In this document: one piece after another, positions 7,670-49,473 of the stretch
Layout: every line of letters begins with the position of its first letter
Position numbering within the stretch: position 1 is the stretch's first letter
Source of the DNA: Anaerolineae bacterium
Lineage (GTDB): Bacteria > Chloroflexota > Anaerolineae > Promineifilales > Promineifilaceae
Direction: 5' to 3'
NCBI GenBank assembly: GCA_020848035.1
Contig: JADLAX010000007.1
Location: forward strand, 1-64,000
Length of the DNA stretch: 64,000 nucleotides
Notes under the pieces: model-generated
What the model was told of the DNA's origin: nothing
The model's input: the letters and a program-made list of their open reading frames with translations, nothing else
Database searches by the model: none
Program-made: the position numbers and the translations under genes

Positions 7670-7981
7670 ATGAATGACTGGCTGCTGCTGGCGCTTGCCA
7701 TCCTGGCGTGTTACCGACTGGCCCGGTTTGCGGTACATGAAGACGGTCCGTTTGGCTTCATGTTGAATATCCGCATCTGGGCTGGTCGATACGACTACGG
7801 CCCAAACGGTGAACCCCAGGGCACCCTGGGCAAGCTGTTTGCATGCCCGTATTGCACAGGCATGTGGATTGCGCTGGCGCTGGCAGCAGCTCTGTTTTGG
7901 CAACGGCCGTTGTGGATTCCACTAATATGGCTGGGGATCGCGGGTGGTCAGGCTTTCCTGGAAGGAATGTCGGGGCGTTAG
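7670..7981 (+). CDS. DUF1360-like membrane protein
   Basis: About 103 residues from the ATG at 7670. Two hydrophobic segments flank a CPYCTGMW motif, which is the signature of the DUF1360 family (YjcA-like). Such genes are common among phage head genes, but their role is unknown. It abuts the next gene without a gap. Confidence 0.75.
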   Translation: MNDWLLLALAILACYRLARFAVHEDGPFGFMLNIRIWAGRYDYGPNGEPQGTLGKLFACPYCTGMWIALALAAALFWQRPLWIPLIWLGIAGGQAFLEGMSGR

Positions 7982-9970
7982 ATGGCAACTCGACCCAGTA
8001 TTAACGGCACTCCGCAGTACGTTAACAGCACCAACACGATTTCCGTTACGTTGGCGGCTGCCGTAAACAAGCTGTTGGTCTTTGGTGCCTACTTTTACGT
8101 CAGCACAGGCGCTGCGCCCGGATCGGCCACATACAACAGCGTGGCGATGACCGGCCTGGGAGGCATTGAAATCGCGGCGGGGACACGCTCGGTCATCATT
8201 GAGGTGTTTGCGCTGGACATGCCTGCCACCGGCAGCCCGCATAATGCGGTGTATTCACCTGGTTCGACACCTACGGATATAGCGGTAATTGCGGTGCCCC
8301 TCCAAGACGCTGGGGATATCGGGGCAACCAGCCCCGCCCTGGCCGATAACGGCAGCGCAACAAACGCCACTGTCAGTTTTGATACAGATGATGTGGATGG
8401 GCTAATTGTGGCCATGCCTGTGCGGCGCGGTGGCGGGACGCCGCCGCTATGGACCCCAGGAAGCGGTTCAACCAAATGGGTTGACAGCGCCACCGGTACA
8501 AGTTCGACCTTCGACTTCATTTACAGCTTGCTCACCAAGGCGGCTACGGGCGGAACTGACACAATTAACGCCACCGTGGCCACGGCAAACAACATGGGCA
8601 TTTTGGCGGTCGAAATAAAGTCGATTGTTGCCGCAGGCAGCGATCTAGTTGAGGTGATTACCGAAGGGGTACAGCTGGTGGATGAGGCTGCACGACGGCT
8701 GGCAATGAGCCGGGTCGTTACTGAGACCGTGCAGATAGTAGAAATGCTCGCCCGTCTGCTGGGGCTGGTGCGCGCACCAGGTGAGGCAGTAGCAGTGGTT
8801 GAAGGCATTCTTCGACCTATGGCTCTTACCCGCTGGGGTGATGAGGTCATCGCGGTTGGGGATGGCTCACTGTATCGTCGAGGCTTAACCCGACGCTCAA
8901 ACGAAAATGTGCAGGTAGCGGAGGTTGTGGCCAGGCTGGCTGGTCTGGTTCGTGCCATCGCAAACACACTTTCAATTGGTGAAGGTTCGGCCCGGCCAAT
9001 GCATCTGCGGCGATTGATTAATGAAACTGTCCAGGCCCAGGAGGCAGGCGCGCGCCTGCGTGCACTGGTGCGCAGGGTCATTGAAGGTGTGCAGCTCCCC
9101 GAAACGGCCGTTCGCCTGATGGCCATGGTGAGAATCCGTCAGGAAACTGTGGCGGCGAGCGAGACAAACAGCCGCGTGGTGGGCTTTGTGCGGCAGGCCC
9201 TGGAGTCGGTGCAGAACATCGAGGCAGTGTCCCGCCTGGCAGGATTTGTGCGCCGGGCAAGCGAGACGGTGAGCGTGGAGGAAACGGCCGTTTACCGGCG
9301 CGCCCTCACCCGCCTGCTCAACGAGGTTACGGCCGTTGTTGAGCTGGTGGCCAACCCGCGCATTCTCAACCGCCTGATTGGCGAAACTGTCACGACGCCG
9401 GAGATTGTTGGGCGACTGAAGACGATGGTGCGTGGCCAAAGTGACGCTGTTCAAATTGGCGAGGGCAACGGCCGTGTGCTGGGATTCGTGCGGATGGTCT
9501 CGGATGTTGTAGGACTATCCGAAATAGCCGGGCAGGCTCGTGGCTTTTTGCGCATGGTGAATGACACAGTGCAGTTGAGTGAGGTAACTGGTCGCAACAT
9601 GGGTTTTGTGCGGCTTATCCTGGAGGGTGTGGGGCTTAACGAGACACTCGCCCGCTGGCGTGCCCTGCTCCGGGTGATTGGTGAAACCGAAACTGTGACA
9701 GAAACGGCCGTGTGGCGCATGGCCCTGATTCGCGTGATTTCCGAAAGCGTTCAGGTGCCCGAAGGTATTCTGCGCCTGGCGAGCTTTGTACGCAGCGCGG
9801 TTGAGATTGTGACGATCGCCGAAGACGCCAGCCGGGTCCGCGGTCTTATCCGCAGCGTGGCGGAAGATGTCGAGGTTAGCGAAGCCGTCTCCTGGCTATT
9901 TGGGGTGATAGGAACGGCCGTTGTGAAGTTCCGGGCCATGTGGCGCGGCATGTTCAGGGGGATGAGATGA
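7982..9970 (+). CDS. Repeat-bearing structural protein
   Basis: 662 residues. The first ~215 form a beta-sandwich-like domain (pattern ATYNSVAMT...IEVFALDMP) often found in virion appendages. Then come 20 consecutive repeats of exactly 20 residues with consensus R-x3-h-R-x3-E-x-V-x3-E-x4, up to residue ~637, then a basic tail. The repeats have diverged but never change length, which suggests a solenoid or fibre. It lies between head genes, so it may be a head fibre or neck appendage. I cannot name a family with certainty. Confidence 0.6.
   Translation: MATRPSINGTPQYVNSTNTISVTLAAAVNKLLVFGAYFYVSTGAAPGSATYNSVAMTGLGGIEIAAGTRSVIIEVFALDMPATGSPHNAVYSPGSTPTDIAVIAVPLQDAGDIGATSPALADNGSATNATVSFDTDDVDGLIVAMPVRRGGGTPPLWTPGSGSTKWVDSATGTSSTFDFIYSLLTKAATGGTDTINATVATANNMGILAVEIKSIVAAGSDLVEVITEGVQLVDEAARRLAMSRVVTETVQIVEMLARLLGLVRAPGEAVAVVEGILRPMALTRWGDEVIAVGDGSLYRRGLTRRSNENVQVAEVVARLAGLVRAIANTLSIGEGSARPMHLRRLINETVQAQEAGARLRALVRRVIEGVQLPETAVRLMAMVRIRQETVAASETNSRVVGFVRQALESVQNIEAVSRLAGFVRRASETVSVEETAVYRRALTRLLNEVTAVVELVANPRILNRLIGETVTTPEIVGRLKTMVRGQSDAVQIGEGNGRVLGFVRMVSDVVGLSEIAGQARGFLRMVNDTVQLSEVTGRNMGFVRLILEGVGLNETLARWRALLRVIGETETVTETAVWRMALIRVISESVQVPEGILRLASFVRSAVEIVTIAEDASRVRGLIRSVAEDVEVSEAVSWLFGVIGTAVVKFRAMWRGMFRGMR
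8693..9892 (+). repeat. Twenty tandem 60-bp coding repeats
   Basis: Each unit codes for 20 residues starting at an Arg (occasionally Tyr, Trp, Gln or Asn). Units such as RLAGFVRRASETVSVEETAV and RLASFVRSAVEIVTIAEDAS show the pattern. All units keep the same length, while the DNA identity between them is low. Confidence 0.85.
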
Positions 9971-43116: not shown

Positions 43117-43688
43117 AGTTGGGTCGCTACCGGTTGATCGTCCTGGATCTGGCTTCTGTTTTGCATCGAGACAACGGCCATTTTCACCTGATGCCCTCCG
43201 CGCAAGAGTGGCTGGCACAGCAGCCAATGCGCGCTCCGGATCAGACGCCGTTCATTGCAGTGGTTGAATACCTGCCCATTGCCGTGGGATCCAGGTACAC
43301 GCCGCTTGCATCCAGACTGACACGCCGGTTGCCCATCGATGGAGCCAGGTCGCTGCTCGGCCGGTGGCCGGACCCGGCTGTGCTGCGCCTGTGCCAACGT
43401 CTTTATGGCAACGGCCCCAGCCTGCTTCTGGGCAACTCTCAACTTCATTTTGTGGCGGCCCAGTCAGTTGGCTTTGATTTCTGTTTTGTTCAGGCACTCT
43501 TTTCACCGAGCAAGCAGGTGCAGGCAGGCGACCCCACGGCACGATGGTGCCCGCGCTGTGGGCCGAAGTCTCTGTTAGTGGTCGGTGGTCAAAACGAAGA
43601 CAAGTTGACCTGCTCATCTTGTGGCTACCGTACCGATGCGCCTGAGTCCATCAAATTGTTGAATAGCGGCGCTGCACGGTTGCTATGA
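43107..43688 (+). CDS. Zinc-ribbon hypothetical protein
   Basis: 193 residues from the ATG at 43107; the longer frame upstream overlaps the previous gene and is rejected. The C-terminus has a zinc ribbon: CPRCG...CSSCGYRTD. The N-terminus (YRLIVLDLASVLHRDNG) is HAD-like at most. Function unknown. Confidence 0.55.
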   Translation: MSIELGRYRLIVLDLASVLHRDNGHFHLMPSAQEWLAQQPMRAPDQTPFIAVVEYLPIAVGSRYTPLASRLTRRLPIDGARSLLGRWPDPAVLRLCQRLYGNGPSLLLGNSQLHFVAAQSVGFDFCFVQALFSPSKQVQAGDPTARWCPRCGPKSLLVVGGQNEDKLTCSSCGYRTDAPESIKLLNSGAARLL

Positions 43689-43707
43689 AACCGTTTGAAA
43701 CTATAAT
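43680..43707 (+). promoter_or_regulatory. Promoter of the prenyl synthase with a tandem box
   Basis: TTGCTA (43680) and a perfect TATAAT (43702) are 16 bases apart. TGAAAC at 43686 and 43696 (reverse-strand GTTTCA, 10 bp apart) fill the spacer. The regulator of the boxes could thus control its own signalling cassette. Confidence 0.75.
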
Positions 43708-43733: not shown

Positions 43734-44672
43734 ATGCATATAGAGAAAACCCGTTTGTGTGGTGAATCGGCAATGGCCAATTATGATTGGCCGTTACTGC
43801 GGCGATTGTGGGAAGAGGCGACCAGTAAGCCGCGCCCCAGCTGGTACTTGCCGGAGCTGGTGACCATGTGCTTTGTGGACCAGTGCGACGAGGAAGTGTC
43901 GGCCAAGTTGGCCGCAGCGCTGGGGATGGCTCAATTGGCAATCAAGTTAATCGACGACTTGCTTGATGCTGAGCCAGGTGGGGTACAGGAACAGGCCAGC
44001 GCTGGGGAGGTGGCCAACATTGCCTGTGCCTTTCAGGCTTTTTCTTCCGACCTGGCGCTTACGTCGTTTCATCCAAATACACCTTTTGGTAAGCCTGCTG
44101 CAGCTATCATTGCCCGGCTACTGCATGAGACGGCCTTTGGCCAAAAGCTAGACTCATCTGAGGCGTTTACAGAGGAAGAATATTGGGTGACCGTGCAGTG
44201 GAAATCTACGCCATTCTACAGGCACGCTTTTGCCTTGGGCGCGCTGCTGGCGCGGCATCATGGGGCCACTGTCGATGTGCAGTTGATTCGGTCACTGGGG
44301 ACGATTTTTGGCGAGATGGTGCAGGTGATTGACGACATGGTGGATGTAATGGCTACACCGGCGACCGGCGATTGGCATCGCAGCAACAATCTACTCATTC
44401 TGTTTGCAGAATTGACCGATGAGCACGGCCGTTTCGCAGAGCTAAAAACGGCAGTTCAGGGCGGTGCCGACCCCGAAACAGCCCAGCAGTATTTAATCGA
44501 CTGTGGGGCAGTGACTTACTGTGAGCACGTTGTGAAGGGGAAGTATGAAAGGGCGATGGAGCTTCTGGCTATTTTGAAGATTGAAGATAGTCCGTTGCGG
44601 AAATTATTTGACAGCCACTTGAGCGCCGTCTTAGTACCAACCAAAGGGCCAGACAGCATTCGCCTCGTTTAA
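43734..44672 (+). CDS. Polyprenyl synthase, ComQ-like
   Basis: 312 residues from the ATG at 43734 after GGGAGAGG. The all-helical isoprenoid synthase fold has both aspartate-rich motifs: IDDLLDAEPG (D74, D75, D78) and VIDDMVDVM (D200, D201, D204). In ComQXPA systems such a protein prenylates a Trp of the ComX peptide. Here a candidate peptide gene overlaps its 3' end on the other strand, and a kinase and regulator follow. A housekeeping prenyl-chain role is less likely in a phage. Confidence 0.75.
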   Translation: MHIEKTRLCGESAMANYDWPLLRRLWEEATSKPRPSWYLPELVTMCFVDQCDEEVSAKLAAALGMAQLAIKLIDDLLDAEPGGVQEQASAGEVANIACAFQAFSSDLALTSFHPNTPFGKPAAAIIARLLHETAFGQKLDSSEAFTEEEYWVTVQWKSTPFYRHAFALGALLARHHGATVDVQLIRSLGTIFGEMVQVIDDMVDVMATPATGDWHRSNNLLILFAELTDEHGRFAELKTAVQGGADPETAQQYLIDCGAVTYCEHVVKGKYERAMELLAILKIEDSPLRKLFDSHLSAVLVPTKGPDSIRLV

Positions 44673-44759
44673 CTGGGCACGAAGTTCTGCAACGGTTAAC
44701 CTTGGTTTTTCAGGCTTACTTTTGGCGAAATCAGTAATCGACAAGATGTTGCTATTCAC
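44631..44759 (-). CDS. Candidate prenylated pheromone precursor (ComX-like)
   Basis: A 42-codon minus-strand gene: GTG at 44759, TAA ending at 44631. GAGAGG lies 7 bases before the GTG, and an extended -10 box TGCTATAAT lies on the minus strand at 44823-44815. The peptide starts NSNILSITDFAKS, is basic and helical in the middle, and ends AVWPFGWY. ComX precursors are ~50 residues with the modified Trp near the C-terminus, so W37 or W41 would be the site. The gene is antisense to the last ~40 bases of the ComQ-like gene, and divergent from the kinase. I could find no other peptide candidate between them. Export and processing are inferred. Confidence 0.6.
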   Translation of the reverse strand: MNSNILSITDFAKSKPEKPRLTVAELRAQLNEANAVWPFGWY

Positions 44760-44769
44760 TGTTTACCTC

Positions 44770-44795
44770 TCTGAGCTACGAATCTAAGCTACGAA
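44770..44795. promoter_or_regulatory. Tandem 13-bp repeat between peptide and kinase genes
   Basis: TCTGAGCTACGAA (44770) and TCTAAGCTACGAA (44783) are adjacent direct repeats. They sit in the leader of the minus-strand peptide gene and just before the kinase start, a good place for a shared operator. Confidence 0.6.
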
Positions 44796-44804
44796 CTGGA
44801 TAGA

Positions 44805-47114
44805 ATGATGCTGCATTATAGCATAAGACGCCTTTTAATTGCCTTAGTCCTTTTGTCTTTTGTGGTTGCCGCCTATTTTTCGGCGCGCTACATCATTACG
44901 CCAGCGGTTATGATGACCGCCACGGACAAGGGGTTGGTGATTTACGATCAGCCCGAGTGTGATGTGTGCAGCCTTGAAATAGGCGATATCGTGGTGGCAA
45001 TTGAGGGGGTAGAATATGAGCCGGGTGTTTTTCTGGCTCCATTTGCGGGCTTTACAAATGGTGACGTGGTGAACATGTCGGTGCTGCGGGGCGGGGAGCG
45101 GGTGGAGGCGCAGCTGCGCATCCCTGCGTCTGACGGGTCTGAGGTGTTTGTAAAGCTGCTGGTCTTTGTATTCTGGATGCCGTTTTGGCTGAGCGCTGCC
45201 TGGCTGGCGTATTTTGCGCCGTTGGACAAGCGGGCCATTACGATGGCGGCTATGTTTTCGGTGTATGCCGTCTGGGTGGTGGCCGGGCTGGTGTCGTCGG
45301 CGTTTGTGTCGGCCGCTTCGGTAGTAGTGCACGTGGCTACCTGGATGCTGGTGCCACTGACGGTACAGGTGCATTGGGTATCGCCCAGCCCACTGCACTG
45401 GCGGGTGCCTCGATGGACGGCCGTGGGTTTCTACGGGGTGTTTGCTGTGCTGGTAGTAGCGGAGCTGTTTCAGATGGTGCCTCGCCAGCTGTTCAGCATT
45501 GGCACGGTTTTGATGGTGCTGGCTCCATTTGTGCTGCTGCCACTACACCGGGATAAGGCGCGCCTGAACGCACGCCGCATGATGTTGATGGGGGTGGTTA
45601 CATTGACGGTGCCCCTGGTTGCCTGGCTGCTGATTTCTTTCAATACAGAAACCAGCAGCAGCGCCTCGTCGGTAAATCTGATGCTGGTGGGGGGGTCGGC
45701 GCTGCTGGCGCTGCCGGTGTTTCCGCTGCTTTACGTATATGCCAATTACCGCCAGTATTTTTCGGCCAAAATGGAGCAGCGGTCATGGCGGGTGTTGGTG
45801 TTGTTGGTTTATATCTCCCTAATTCTGGTGGCGATTACAGCGGCAATCACCGTGGCCGGGCGGTCGCTGTCTATAAACGATCAGGCGATCAACTTGAGCC
45901 TGATTACCTCGACGATTATTGGGGTGGCCGTGGCGCTGGGAACAAACAGTGCGCAGAGCTGGATGAAGCGCTTTACCTACGGCGATTTTGAATCGCGCAT
46001 TAACCTGGCTTCGGTTCGTTTTTCGACGCAGATGACGGAGCTGACGGCTCCGGGCGACTTGGAAGCATTTCTGGCAGCCGAAACGCATGCCCAGCTGGGC
46101 GTGACAGCCTCGGCGCTGTACCTGGCCAGCCCAGAGCTGGTGTTGAAATATGTGGTGGGCGCGGCAGAGGGCGCGACAAAAGCCCCAGAGACGATCAGTC
46201 CTAATAACGACATTGTGGCGGGGTTGGGGAAGTATCGGCCGTATGTGGCGGGCAGCAGCCTGCCCTGGGCCAGGCTGTGCGTTCCTCTGTTGGTAGAGAA
46301 AGACCTGGTGGGGGTATGGTTATTGGGGCCACGGGAGAACGATGATTTTTATGCAGCCGGGCACATCCAGCAGCTGCAAGCGCTGGGCAACCAGGTAGCA
46401 GCGGTGGTGGAAATGCGGCGGCAGCAGCGCGAGATTGAGCGGCAGGTGGCCACGTTACTGGTGAAGGAAAAGGAGGCGGCGTTGGGGCGGGTAGTCACCT
46501 CTGTGGCCCACCAGTTCCGCAATCCGCTGCAAGTTATTATGGGGGCGCTGGAAGCGGACAATGATTACCAAAAGCCGGAAAACGAGTGGCTGGCATTGGC
46601 CTACCAGCGGGCGGAGCGGCTGTCTGACGTAGTTCGTTCTATTCAACGGTTTGCCACGATTAATGACCCAGGAAACGAAGCGGCGCAGCGGATTGATGTG
46701 CAGGAGGCGGTTAAAGAGGCGATGCTGCTCATTGAGCACCGGTTGAAAGAACAGGGGATTACGCTAGCTCTGGAAGATGGCGAACCGTGTTTTGTGATGA
46801 TGGGGGCGTCTGAGCTGACGCAGGCAGTTCTGAACTTGTTGGAGAATGCCAGCGACGCACAAGAAGGGGGCTGCATCCATATTGAGGTGAGCCAACGCAA
46901 TGGCACTGTTGTGCTGCGGGTGCGCGATGAGGGAGCGGGGATTGCTGACGGTGACATTGAGCGGGTATTTGAGCCGTTGTTCACGACAAAAAACGGGCTC
47001 GGTTTGGGATTGTGGATTACGCGTAGTATTATTGAACGAAATCGCGGGACAATAAGCGCCCAGAGTGCTTTGGGGAAAGGTTCTATTTTTACAATAACAC
47101 TCCCAGCAGTGTAA
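44805..47114 (+). CDS. Membrane histidine kinase, ComP-like
   Basis: 769 residues. Signal-anchor helix, then an outer PDZ-like loop (residues ~40-105, LEIGDIVVAIEGVEYEPG), then eight or so membrane helices to residue ~390. A GAF-like region (residues ~395-540) leads to HisKA (VAHQFRNPLQV, phospho-His569) and HATPase_c (NLLENASDA, RDEGAGIADG, NGLGLGLWI). The sensor half matches the layout of Bacillus ComP (PDZ-like loop plus multiple helices), although the kinase core is HisKA rather than HisKA_3. Only GGA precedes the ATGATG start. Confidence 0.75.
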   Translation: MMLHYSIRRLLIALVLLSFVVAAYFSARYIITPAVMMTATDKGLVIYDQPECDVCSLEIGDIVVAIEGVEYEPGVFLAPFAGFTNGDVVNMSVLRGGERVEAQLRIPASDGSEVFVKLLVFVFWMPFWLSAAWLAYFAPLDKRAITMAAMFSVYAVWVVAGLVSSAFVSAASVVVHVATWMLVPLTVQVHWVSPSPLHWRVPRWTAVGFYGVFAVLVVAELFQMVPRQLFSIGTVLMVLAPFVLLPLHRDKARLNARRMMLMGVVTLTVPLVAWLLISFNTETSSSASSVNLMLVGGSALLALPVFPLLYVYANYRQYFSAKMEQRSWRVLVLLVYISLILVAITAAITVAGRSLSINDQAINLSLITSTIIGVAVALGTNSAQSWMKRFTYGDFESRINLASVRFSTQMTELTAPGDLEAFLAAETHAQLGVTASALYLASPELVLKYVVGAAEGATKAPETISPNNDIVAGLGKYRPYVAGSSLPWARLCVPLLVEKDLVGVWLLGPRENDDFYAAGHIQQLQALGNQVAAVVEMRRQQREIERQVATLLVKEKEAALGRVVTSVAHQFRNPLQVIMGALEADNDYQKPENEWLALAYQRAERLSDVVRSIQRFATINDPGNEAAQRIDVQEAVKEAMLLIEHRLKEQGITLALEDGEPCFVMMGASELTQAVLNLLENASDAQEGGCIHIEVSQRNGTVVLRVRDEGAGIADGDIERVFEPLFTTKNGLGLGLWITRSIIERNRGTISAQSALGKGSIFTITLPAV

Positions 47115-47125
47115 GAGAGGTTCCG

Positions 47126-47857
47126 ATGGCCCACATTTTGGTGGTTGATGATGAGGACGATATTTGCCGCCTTATCCGGGATGCCTTTTATAGAAAAGGG
47201 CATGACGTGGATGTGGCGCACAATGGGCGGCAGGCTCTGGAATTGCTGCGACAATCCTTTTATGATGCGATGATACTTGACCTGGTGATGCCCGGCATGA
47301 CCGGCGAGCAGGTTTTGGATCATCGTGAGGAGTATGCGGAAACGGCCGTTATCATTTTGACGGCGCACAGTTCGACCAGCTCAGCAGTGAAGGCGCTGCG
47401 CACACAGGTGTCTGATTACTTGGAGAAGCCGGTTGAGCTGGCTCGGCTGGTGGAGATGGTGGAATCTTATATTGTTTGGCACAGCTACAAGGATTTCAAA
47501 GTCAATATTCAGTCACAGCGCGCCTTCTATAAGGGCGAGCTCATCGAAGGGATGACGGCAGGGCTGTTTTACATTTTTTCGATTTTTGTGAAATATCCCG
47601 GCCGGTACTTTACGCATCAGGAGCTGGTGACGCAGATGGTGAAAGAGTACCCGGATTATTTTGAAAGCGACACCAGGGCTTACATAGCCAAAAAGGTTAA
47701 TGCCGTTGGGGGAATTGACCGAATAACCGCCACACGCTACCTACGCCCGCAGATATCGCGATTGCGGCGGAAGGTGCTGGACCCGTTGGTGGGGCGCGAG
47801 GTGATTACGGATCAGAAGGGGGTGGGGTTTACGTGGGGCCGTTTTGATCTTGTGTAA
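47126..47857 (+). CDS. OmpR-type response regulator
   Basis: 243 residues, 11 bases after the kinase gene, with GAGAGG upstream. The receiver has DDEDD near residues 8-12, phospho-Asp52 (MILDLVMPG), Thr/Ser in ILTAHSS and Lys in LEKPVE. The C-terminal ~100 residues form a winged helix (FTHQELVTQMVKE, RYLRPQISRLRRKVLDP, ITDQKGVGFTW). OmpR-family regulators bind tandem direct half-sites 10-11 bp apart, so it is the best candidate for the GTTKCA arrays. Confidence 0.85.
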   Translation: MAHILVVDDEDDICRLIRDAFYRKGHDVDVAHNGRQALELLRQSFYDAMILDLVMPGMTGEQVLDHREEYAETAVIILTAHSSTSSAVKALRTQVSDYLEKPVELARLVEMVESYIVWHSYKDFKVNIQSQRAFYKGELIEGMTAGLFYIFSIFVKYPGRYFTHQELVTQMVKEYPDYFESDTRAYIAKKVNAVGGIDRITATRYLRPQISRLRRKVLDPLVGREVITDQKGVGFTWGRFDLV

Positions 47858-47906
47858 AAATTGAGGATTTGTTATAGTGGAGGCCTGCTGGTTGCAGTAG
47901 GTTTCA
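47850..47906 (+). promoter_or_regulatory. Promoter and tandem box before the replication gene
   Basis: TTGTGT (47850) and TATAGT (47873), 17 bases apart, then GTTGCA (47891) and GTTTCA (47901), 10 bp apart. CTATACA follows at 47911. Confidence 0.65.
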
Positions 47907-47921
47907 AAATCTATACAAGGC

Positions 47922-48019
47922 AAAAAAAAGCCCGGTGCTTTGGCGAGCATACCGGGCGGGCGCCACAGAGTGGCAGTGGATTCAGCCGCATTATATCATA
48001 TTCCCCTGTGACGCCACAA
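47922..48019 (-). ncRNA. Candidate minus-strand antisense RNA
   Basis: On the minus strand, TTGTGG (48019-48014) and TATAAT (47995-47990) are 18 bases apart, predicting a start near 47983. The RNA ends at a strong terminator: GCCCGGT..GCT paired with AGCACCGGGC, then T8 (47929-47922). It is about 62 nt and antisense to the leader of the replication gene, the arrangement of plasmid copy-control RNAs. Confidence 0.6.
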
Positions 48020-48093
48020 GCCTATATTTTTTATGGATCACCTGTTCTAGGTGATGTGGTGAAACATACGTGGGGATGGTAGAATTGGGCAAC

Positions 48094-48261: not shown

Positions 48262-49473
48262 ATGGCAGCAGCGGTCAAGAGTTCGGCAGAAACAACCTGG
48301 AGAGCGACCCTCAGCGAGCTTGAGTTGCAGATGACGAAGGCCACATTTAACACGTGGCTGAAAGATGCGGTGTTTTTGCGGGTCGAAAAGGGCGTCTACG
48401 TGATTGGCGTACGGAACAGCCATGCAGTTGACTGGCTCACAAATCGGCTGGGGGACACGATCCGGCGCACATTGGCAGCGATTGCTGATACGGCCGTTGA
48501 TGTGCGTTTTGTGGTGGTGGACGTAGTTGAGAGTGAGCTGGCCCAGGACGACGAGGGTGAAGATGGGGAACGGCCGTTTTACTCGCGGCCTGACATCAAC
48601 GCCCAATGGTATGCTGTGCTAAAGGCGTATGCGGAAGCCCAAGACAGTTTGCAGCCATCATCCTGCCTGAAGCTGCTGAATAAATTGGATTTTTTGATTG
48701 ACGGTACAAACCTCAAGATTTTTTCTTCTGACCCCAAAGCTATTGAAAATTTGAATAGAATCGCCAACTGGCTGGAGGCCCTGCAAGCGCAGTTTCGTGT
48801 GGCGGGCCTGCTGGTGGATGTGTCATTGCACCAGGAGCCGAGCAGTAATGGCCGTGCCAATGGGCAAGCTAGCCAGGCTAGCCAGAAGCAGCAAACCAAG
48901 CGCAAGGGCAGCGATGACGGGGATGGACCGGTGCAGTATAGGAACATTCGGCCCCCAACGGATCCGCTGGGGTCTTTTGTGAAAACCAGCCATTATGCCA
49001 TTCGGTTCTGGCGGCCGTACCTGGGGCCAGATGTGTTTGATTTGCTGCAAATCATTAGCAGTTATGCTTATGAATTTGAGGTGTTACGCAAGGATGGGCC
49101 AACCCTGACAGCCCTCATTAACAAGATGGGGCGGGGGAAGGACACCAGGAAGCTCACCGGCAGAACAGGCAGCGGCAAGGGCGATAGCTACCGCGAGGGG
49201 TCTTATGGTTGGCTGAACGAGCTGCGGGATCATCGGCTGTGCGACTATTGGCAAGATGGGTACGGCCGTTGGGCTAAGAATTATTTCGACCACTTGACCA
49301 AAGTGAGCGACCTCCCACTACTAACCCCCAAACAGGTAGCACGATTATCCCCTGAAGACCAGGCAGAACACGAGGAATGGCTCCGGCTGCATACGGCCGT
49401 TGATTACGACGAATGGAGCCAGGACGGGCGTGAATCACGCATTCCAGAATTGCCTTTGCGAGAACACCCCTAA
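48262..49473 (+). CDS. Replication initiator with a DnaA_N domain
   Basis: 403 residues with GAGGAT upstream. Residues ~10-90 fit DnaA domain I (TWRATLSELELQMTKATFNT, VRNSHAVDWLTNRLGDTI). A flexible linker leads to a C-terminal half with many aromatic residues (SHYAIRFWRPYLGPDVFDLL) and an RTGSGKGDSYREGSYGW loop. There is no AAA+ domain, so it is not DnaA; the N-terminal domain could recruit host DnaB or DnaA partners. Iterons begin 23 bases after the stop codon. I take it as the plasmid-type initiator. Confidence 0.7.
   Translation: MAAAVKSSAETTWRATLSELELQMTKATFNTWLKDAVFLRVEKGVYVIGVRNSHAVDWLTNRLGDTIRRTLAAIADTAVDVRFVVVDVVESELAQDDEGEDGERPFYSRPDINAQWYAVLKAYAEAQDSLQPSSCLKLLNKLDFLIDGTNLKIFSSDPKAIENLNRIANWLEALQAQFRVAGLLVDVSLHQEPSSNGRANGQASQASQKQQTKRKGSDDGDGPVQYRNIRPPTDPLGSFVKTSHYAIRFWRPYLGPDVFDLLQIISSYAYEFEVLRKDGPTLTALINKMGRGKDTRKLTGRTGSGKGDSYREGSYGWLNELRDHRLCDYWQDGYGRWAKNYFDHLTKVSDLPLLTPKQVARLSPEDQAEHEEWLRLHTAVDYDEWSQDGRESRIPELPLREHP

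Follow-up and report, generated by a model that had tools for sequence, protein, structure and literature searches.

A probable ComQXPA-like cassette on an Anaerolineae phage-plasmid and a putative antisense precursor of its signal

The window analysed here comprises 64,000 nucleotides from an Anaerolineae bacterium (Chloroflexota, Promineifilaceae; contig JADLAX010000007.1, positions 1 to 64,000). Between 43.7 and 47.9 kb it carries a cassette in which three plus-strand genes are accompanied by a short frame on the opposite strand, with the following features:

43680..43707 (+), promoter-like TTGCTA-16-TATAAT 5' of the synthase gene, 10/12 matches
43734..44672 (+), ComQ-like synthase-fold enzyme of 312 aa (Pfam PF00348, 39.7 bits)
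44631..44759 (-), candidate precursor peptide frame of 42 codons, C-terminus AVWPFGWY
44766..44771 (-), Shine-Dalgarno (SD) sequence GAGAGG, 6 nt 5' of the candidate's GTG
44770..44795 (no strand), tandem repeat TCTGAGCTACGAA/TCTAAGCTACGAA, 13-nt units, 12/13 identical
44805..47114 (+), ComP-like histidine kinase of 769 aa (Pfam, transmembrane prediction, model)
44815..44823 (-), extended -10 TGCTATAAT, a promoter element for the candidate, weak taken alone
47126..47857 (+), response regulator of 243 aa, with a receiver and an OmpR-like winged helix, the latter below the Pfam cut-off

Both Asp-rich motifs of the synthase are intact (DDLLD and DDMVD), and its model (mean pLDDT 88) adopts the trans-isoprenyl-diphosphate-synthase fold, with PDB neighbours of the same type. 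The C-terminal residues 304-312 are disordered in the model and unconserved in the alignment, so that an overlapping gene could be accommodated there; as modelled, the candidate frame overlaps only this disordered tail. The promoter-like site ahead of the synthase comes from a scan in which 2.9 such sites per region are expected by chance. The kinase has ten predicted transmembrane (TM) segments and is arranged as TM1, an extracellular PDZ-like domain, nine further TM segments, a GAF-like region, HisKA and HATPase. In its model (pLDDT 84.7), the loop of about 80 residues that follows TM1 matches the PDZ domains of HtrA and DegS with a Foldseek probability of 1.00, the E-values being only about 0.1. 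The response regulator matched Response_reg and, weakly, Trans_reg_C, and PF00196 was absent. A same-strand precursor was not found in the cassette, where no frame precedes the synthase and the space between it and the kinase gene holds only one of 12 codons.

The contig that carries the cassette is 101,576 bp long and was binned with a Chloroflexota genome. Its last 127 bp are identical to its first 127 bp, and it is a circular molecule. It encodes a terminase large subunit (phrog_675, 1.5e-93), tape-measure and minor tail proteins and an integrase, as well as ParB-type partition proteins and a PRTRC ThiF. Since phage genes lie on a circular contig, the cassette is located on a phage-plasmid rather than on a chromosome, and a plain plasmid was rejected as the carrier upon the terminase, tape-measure and tail genes. 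The cassette is flanked by PRTRC genes on one side and by a DnaA-domain-I-like gene on the other. Residues 9-98 of the protein encoded by the latter (48262-49473(+)) share 63% identity with domain I of the DnaA on the host chromosome (C21), the rest of DnaA being absent; judged by this similarity, the protein has the look of a replication protein by which the phage imitates the helicase-recruiting domain of the host. In the phage-plasmid stretch L129 (9802-12658(-)), a CBASS-type cyclase (SMODS, AGS_C) adjoins a SAVED endonuclease-type effector.

The minus-strand frame starts with GTG at 44759, stops at 44631 and translates as VNSNILSITDFAKSKPEKPRLTVAELRAQLNEANAVWPFGWY. An initial annotation had singled it out as a candidate ComX-type pheromone precursor, and its frame, coordinates, strand and translation were confirmed at 44631-44759(-), together with the GAGAGG described ahead of the GTG start (44766-44771(-), 6 nt spacing), the AVWPFGWY end with its two Trp residues (W37 and W41 of 42, with three residues between them, WPFGW) and the overlap with the end of the synthase gene, which measures 42 nt (44631-44672). 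The extended -10 that had also been reported upstream is indeed present at 44815-44823(-), but it is weak by itself, since the window has two elements of this type where 0.73 would be expected, and 18 of 100 shuffles likewise reached two. The leader SITDF occupies residues 7-11. The candidate is the sole SD-led short frame on the 3' side of the synthase gene, no other frame of the cassette bears the marks of a precursor, and the candidate is single-copy in the 7.65-Mb assembly. In codon scoring, 9.7% of shadow frames were equally good and 15% of real-gene fragments equally bad. No terminator or strong structure was found 3' of the candidate on the minus strand. The 45-bp gap between the starts of the candidate and of the kinase gene contains the tandem repeat, a possible regulator site; with this one included, 101 kb hold 8 comparable repeats.

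Relatives of the cassette were sought in whole genomes and GTDB contigs, first with the synthase and then with its alignment. The single-sequence search of genome contigs confirmed nothing, the alignment-based one did work, and the searches together gave some 60 related loci, nearly all in Anaerolineae MAGs and one in Kordia. When the 55 further non-redundant cassettes holding both enzyme and precursor were counted, the precursor lay directly upstream of the synthase and on the same strand in all 55, the window cassette alone being without a precursor at that position. The precursors of the relatives are Trp-bearing and have 45-69 codons, with an SD in nearly all; examples are MNDQVNISTFLELISSDTENPLVEALRKLSEVGDPEAIGEAKGPQPLGSWSGWAM (G022), MKESMSIQKFNELLKAGKSEDSLLATLLQLTKVSNHKDLSELRKTEVWGWYWDW (G001) and MFNMQAFHQWLSSPTETASDYQRRLIHLTRLGREQLLRASAGLGWEIWHAPDADVTY (L102), and in L102, a canonical pair, the precursor at 7701-7874 is followed by the enzyme at 7875-8858. 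In 54/58 precursors, Trp residues occur near the C-terminus as a pair or cluster with no more than two residues between them, the spacing in the family being 2 in nearly all and 1 in the rest. None of the members tested received a Pfam or NCBIfam name, and the Chloroflexota precursors are a ComX-like precursor family. Three loci that had seemed to be precursor-less (L069, L071 and L074) were rejected as such, as a precursor is present upstream in each. The second Asp-rich motif is DDxxD in the enzymes of all relatives, and in most loci a ComP-like kinase gene is present as well, which follows the synthase or is divergently oriented to the precursor.

Several of these loci have features of their own. 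In L084-L119 and others, a conserved AAAGGAGGTGGTTCGATTATAGC element precedes the precursor start by about 70-110 nt, and most loci whose precursors are of the MQxFY type have it in the gap between kinase and precursor; it is a near-perfect complement of the 16S rRNA 3' end, and its other strand has a TATAAT pointing to the kinase gene. The Kordia (Bacteroidota) contig contains a family precursor-enzyme pair (L120, 7560-8756(+)), which suggests transfer between phyla; a kinase of ComP-like type was not found in the stretch retrieved. Additionally, cassettes of precursor, enzyme and OmpR-like regulator occur in the genus of the window and on its own chromosome (L034, L036, L037 and L038), with no ComP-like kinase within flanks of up to 8 kb on either side. 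Very large open frames adjoin the precursor-enzyme cassettes of L039 (10010-16000), L040 (3-6470) and L044, those in L039 and L040 starting like polyketide synthases (EPIAIIGMACRYPGGA); it is possible that the frames near these three cassettes are the regulated product.

The initial annotation had looked to related cassettes for a Trp-ending frame at the same place, and, taken literally, this expectation fails, given that all 55 precursors lie upstream on the synthase strand. The failure is softened by the Trp-ending precursor that the relatives have elsewhere, by the window synthase itself, which leave-one-out scoring places as the most divergent of 56, and by the precedent of a hypothetical opposite-strand comX. 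The candidate scored 0.2 bits against the family profile, ranking 64th among 557 window frames, while all 58 true members reached at least 6.8 bits with a leave-one-out profile from which near copies had also been left out. Its pairwise (Smith-Waterman) scores against family precursors were at background, and a likeness to the L041 precursor noticed by eye was rejected because both the profile and Smith-Waterman scores were at background. No family member has a Trp spacing of 3, and the GTG start, the antisense strand and the downstream position are unique to the candidate among relatives. It shares with the family an SD-led start and the motif [STNK][IMV]xxF near the N-terminus, and departs from it in profile match, in Trp pair spacing (1-2) and in the upstream same-strand position. 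Its SITDF stands where relatives carry SIQKF, SIEDF, TIEEF or NISTF, its final GWY recurs in the GGWY end of L088, and it is divergent from the kinase gene, like the precursors of most relatives. Enzyme and precursor scores were weakly correlated (r = 0.30, p = 0.025, n = 55, the related loci being non-independent), and the score predicted from this correlation for a precursor in the window is 13 +/- 12 bits, so that a profile miss at 0.2 bits is not extreme. No precursor was detected by profile elsewhere on the window contig, the only significant match in the genome being a chromosomal cassette on C4, and searches of plasmids, viral contigs and phages returned kinase-domain matches only and no close relatives of the window cassette. 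The candidate is without a Pfam match, and a search with PF05952, the Pfam ComX family, gave nothing above the cut-off in the genome, but the B. subtilis control also fell below it.

The initial annotation had placed the weight of its proposal on the combination of marks. A combination that includes the leader motif of the relatives was evaluated in 785 kb of sequence, which contain about 7,936 frames of 30-85 aa from outside the family, by looking for an SD of at least 5, [STNK][IMV]xxF in the first residues and W-x(1-3)-W near the end. An SD of this quality preceded 602 of these frames and 64 had a double Trp at the very end, the two marks coinciding only in the candidate and one other frame. 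That other frame corresponds to about one chance occurrence per 785 kb, or roughly 0.005 expected per 4-kb cassette. All three marks were combined in the candidate alone; however, the motif ranges were fixed after the family and the candidate had been seen, and the result is therefore supportive and non-independent.

The main rival is that the frame is a chance ORF, the cassette having lost its precursor while its kinase hears a foreign signal, or the true precursor lying elsewhere, undetected; we regard this as a serious but less probable reading. It agrees with the background profile and pairwise scores of the candidate, with its off-pattern Trp spacing and with the relatives' precursors being all upstream and co-directional. 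Listening to the host stands foremost within it because a canonical, intact precursor-enzyme-regulator cassette lies on C4, a chromosomal contig of the same genome. Eavesdropping on the signals of the host is known from phages, VP882 among them, and this counts in the same direction. On the other hand, an SD, a leader and a double Trp are expected together far less than once per cassette by chance, and an enzyme with intact conserved motifs would be idle without a substrate had the precursor been lost.

It was also considered that the minus-strand unit is real and its reading frame incidental, the transcript damping the synthase as an antisense RNA. The extended -10 at 44815-44823 and the 42-nt overlap with the synthase mRNA would fit such a role, but the overlap is short, no minus-strand terminator or strong structure was found after the frame, and the SD and the well-placed start codon would be superfluous, which makes this reading improbable. 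Less probable still is that the precursor is another short frame, of 73 codons with a TTG start, which directly follows the response regulator (47861-48082(+)) and is probably a chance frame. Its end, KHTWGW, has the W-x-W form known from some relatives (NWGWRW, WGWYWDW), and the frame is downstream and co-directional; however, it has neither an SD of at least 5 nor the leader motif, its 73 aa are of atypical composition, and the profile does not select it.

Taken together, the cassette is most likely a ComQXPA-like prenyl-peptide signalling system carried by a circular phage-plasmid. Since every other complete cassette pairs the enzyme with an SD-led Trp precursor, a precursor is expected in the window cassette as well, and the 42-codon antisense frame is, in our judgement, probably that precursor. 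The profile score of 0.2 bits and the off-family Trp spacing hold this assignment to a guarded preference and the frame to a putative precursor. The ComX-type reading of the initial annotation thus gains from the ComQXPA-like locus and from the lack of a rival frame with the marks, and is weakened by the profile score and by a position unlike that of the relatives. In the mechanism that we propose, the candidate would have a minus-strand promoter of its own, situated in the shared gap between it and the kinase gene, and its product would serve as substrate of the synthase-fold enzyme, which, by analogy with the ComQ and PalQ literature (PMC10853753, PMC13290415), would prenylate one of the two C-terminal Trp residues. 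The C-terminal peptide would then be processed and exported, and the ten-helix kinase may sense it via its extracellular PDZ-like/TM region and phosphorylate the response regulator, which, with increasing carrier-cell density, could act on genes of the phage-plasmid or of the host. A more speculative extension, which we consider rather unlikely, is that a temperate Anaerolineae phage-plasmid possesses its own complete prenyl-peptide density circuit, with an antisense precursor, setting lysis, lysogeny or copy number.

A literature search found no report of a ComQXPA-type system in Chloroflexota. Here, more than 50 cassettes, nearly all from Anaerolineae, contain the enzyme and a recognisable Trp precursor, most with a ComP-like kinase, and one is located on a phage-plasmid. 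If the proposed function is correct, they would offer a concrete, testable cell-to-cell signal for a largely uncultured phylum, dozens of new candidate Trp prenyltransferase/substrate pairs and a second way for phages to count cells. If the phage-plasmid circuit were real, it would constitute a membrane-kinase counterpart of arbitrium outside Firmicutes.

The likeness to the Bacillus ComQXPA system lies in a PF00348 enzyme, a short precursor with C-terminal Trp, a ten-TM kinase with a PDZ-like domain and a response regulator, all adjacent. Bacillus ComP has been modelled with ten TM segments, the first two of which enclose an extracellular PDZ domain (PMC9620489), and the window kinase conforms to this layout, with ten TM segments and a large extracellular PDZ-like loop after TM1. 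However, ComQ is without the second Asp-rich motif (PMC10853753), whereas the enzymes of the window (DDMVD) and its relatives keep the second DDxxD; the window regulator is OmpR-like, in contrast to the LuxR/NarL-type ComA; and the gene order differs, with the precursor upstream of the enzyme in relatives, antisense in the window, and the four genes not on one strand. Because of these mismatches in motif, regulator type and gene order, membership in ComQXPA proper is not claimed, only that the system would work like it. The Chloroflexota precursors also gave no match to a Pfam ComX model, in a search whose B. subtilis control likewise stayed below the cut-off. A 2014 census found no ComQXPA-like loci outside Firmicutes (PMC4008528), whereas the host here belongs to Chloroflexota and the carrier is a phage-plasmid. 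An opposite-strand comX candidate is already known, since Dogsa 2014 described, in B. cereus VD102 and L. fusiformis ZC1, a hypothetical comX that lies between comQ and comP but is encoded on the other strand and has no homology to known ComX except for the C-terminal Trp (PMC4008528). By this description the placement is the same as in the window, those loci being in Firmicutes and their comX hypothetical.

The PalQ/PalX/PalP system of Paenibacillus alvei likewise comprises a synthase-fold Trp prenyltransferase, a precursor with C-terminal Trp and an adjoining histidine kinase (PMC10853753). PalQ favours a Gly before the acceptor Trp (PMC13290415), a preference that the GW ends seen here resemble. 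PalX, however, starts with a leader of the NHLP type and has Trp as its very last residue, whereas the Chloroflexota precursors are shorter and mostly have residues after the Trp. Finally, the cassette recalls arbitrium (AimP/AimR) and phage VP882 in that density signalling would be phage-carried, if the use proposed here is correct. In contrast to arbitrium, which relies on an unmodified peptide and a cytoplasmic receptor, the window cassette combines a prenyltransferase-type enzyme with a membrane kinase.
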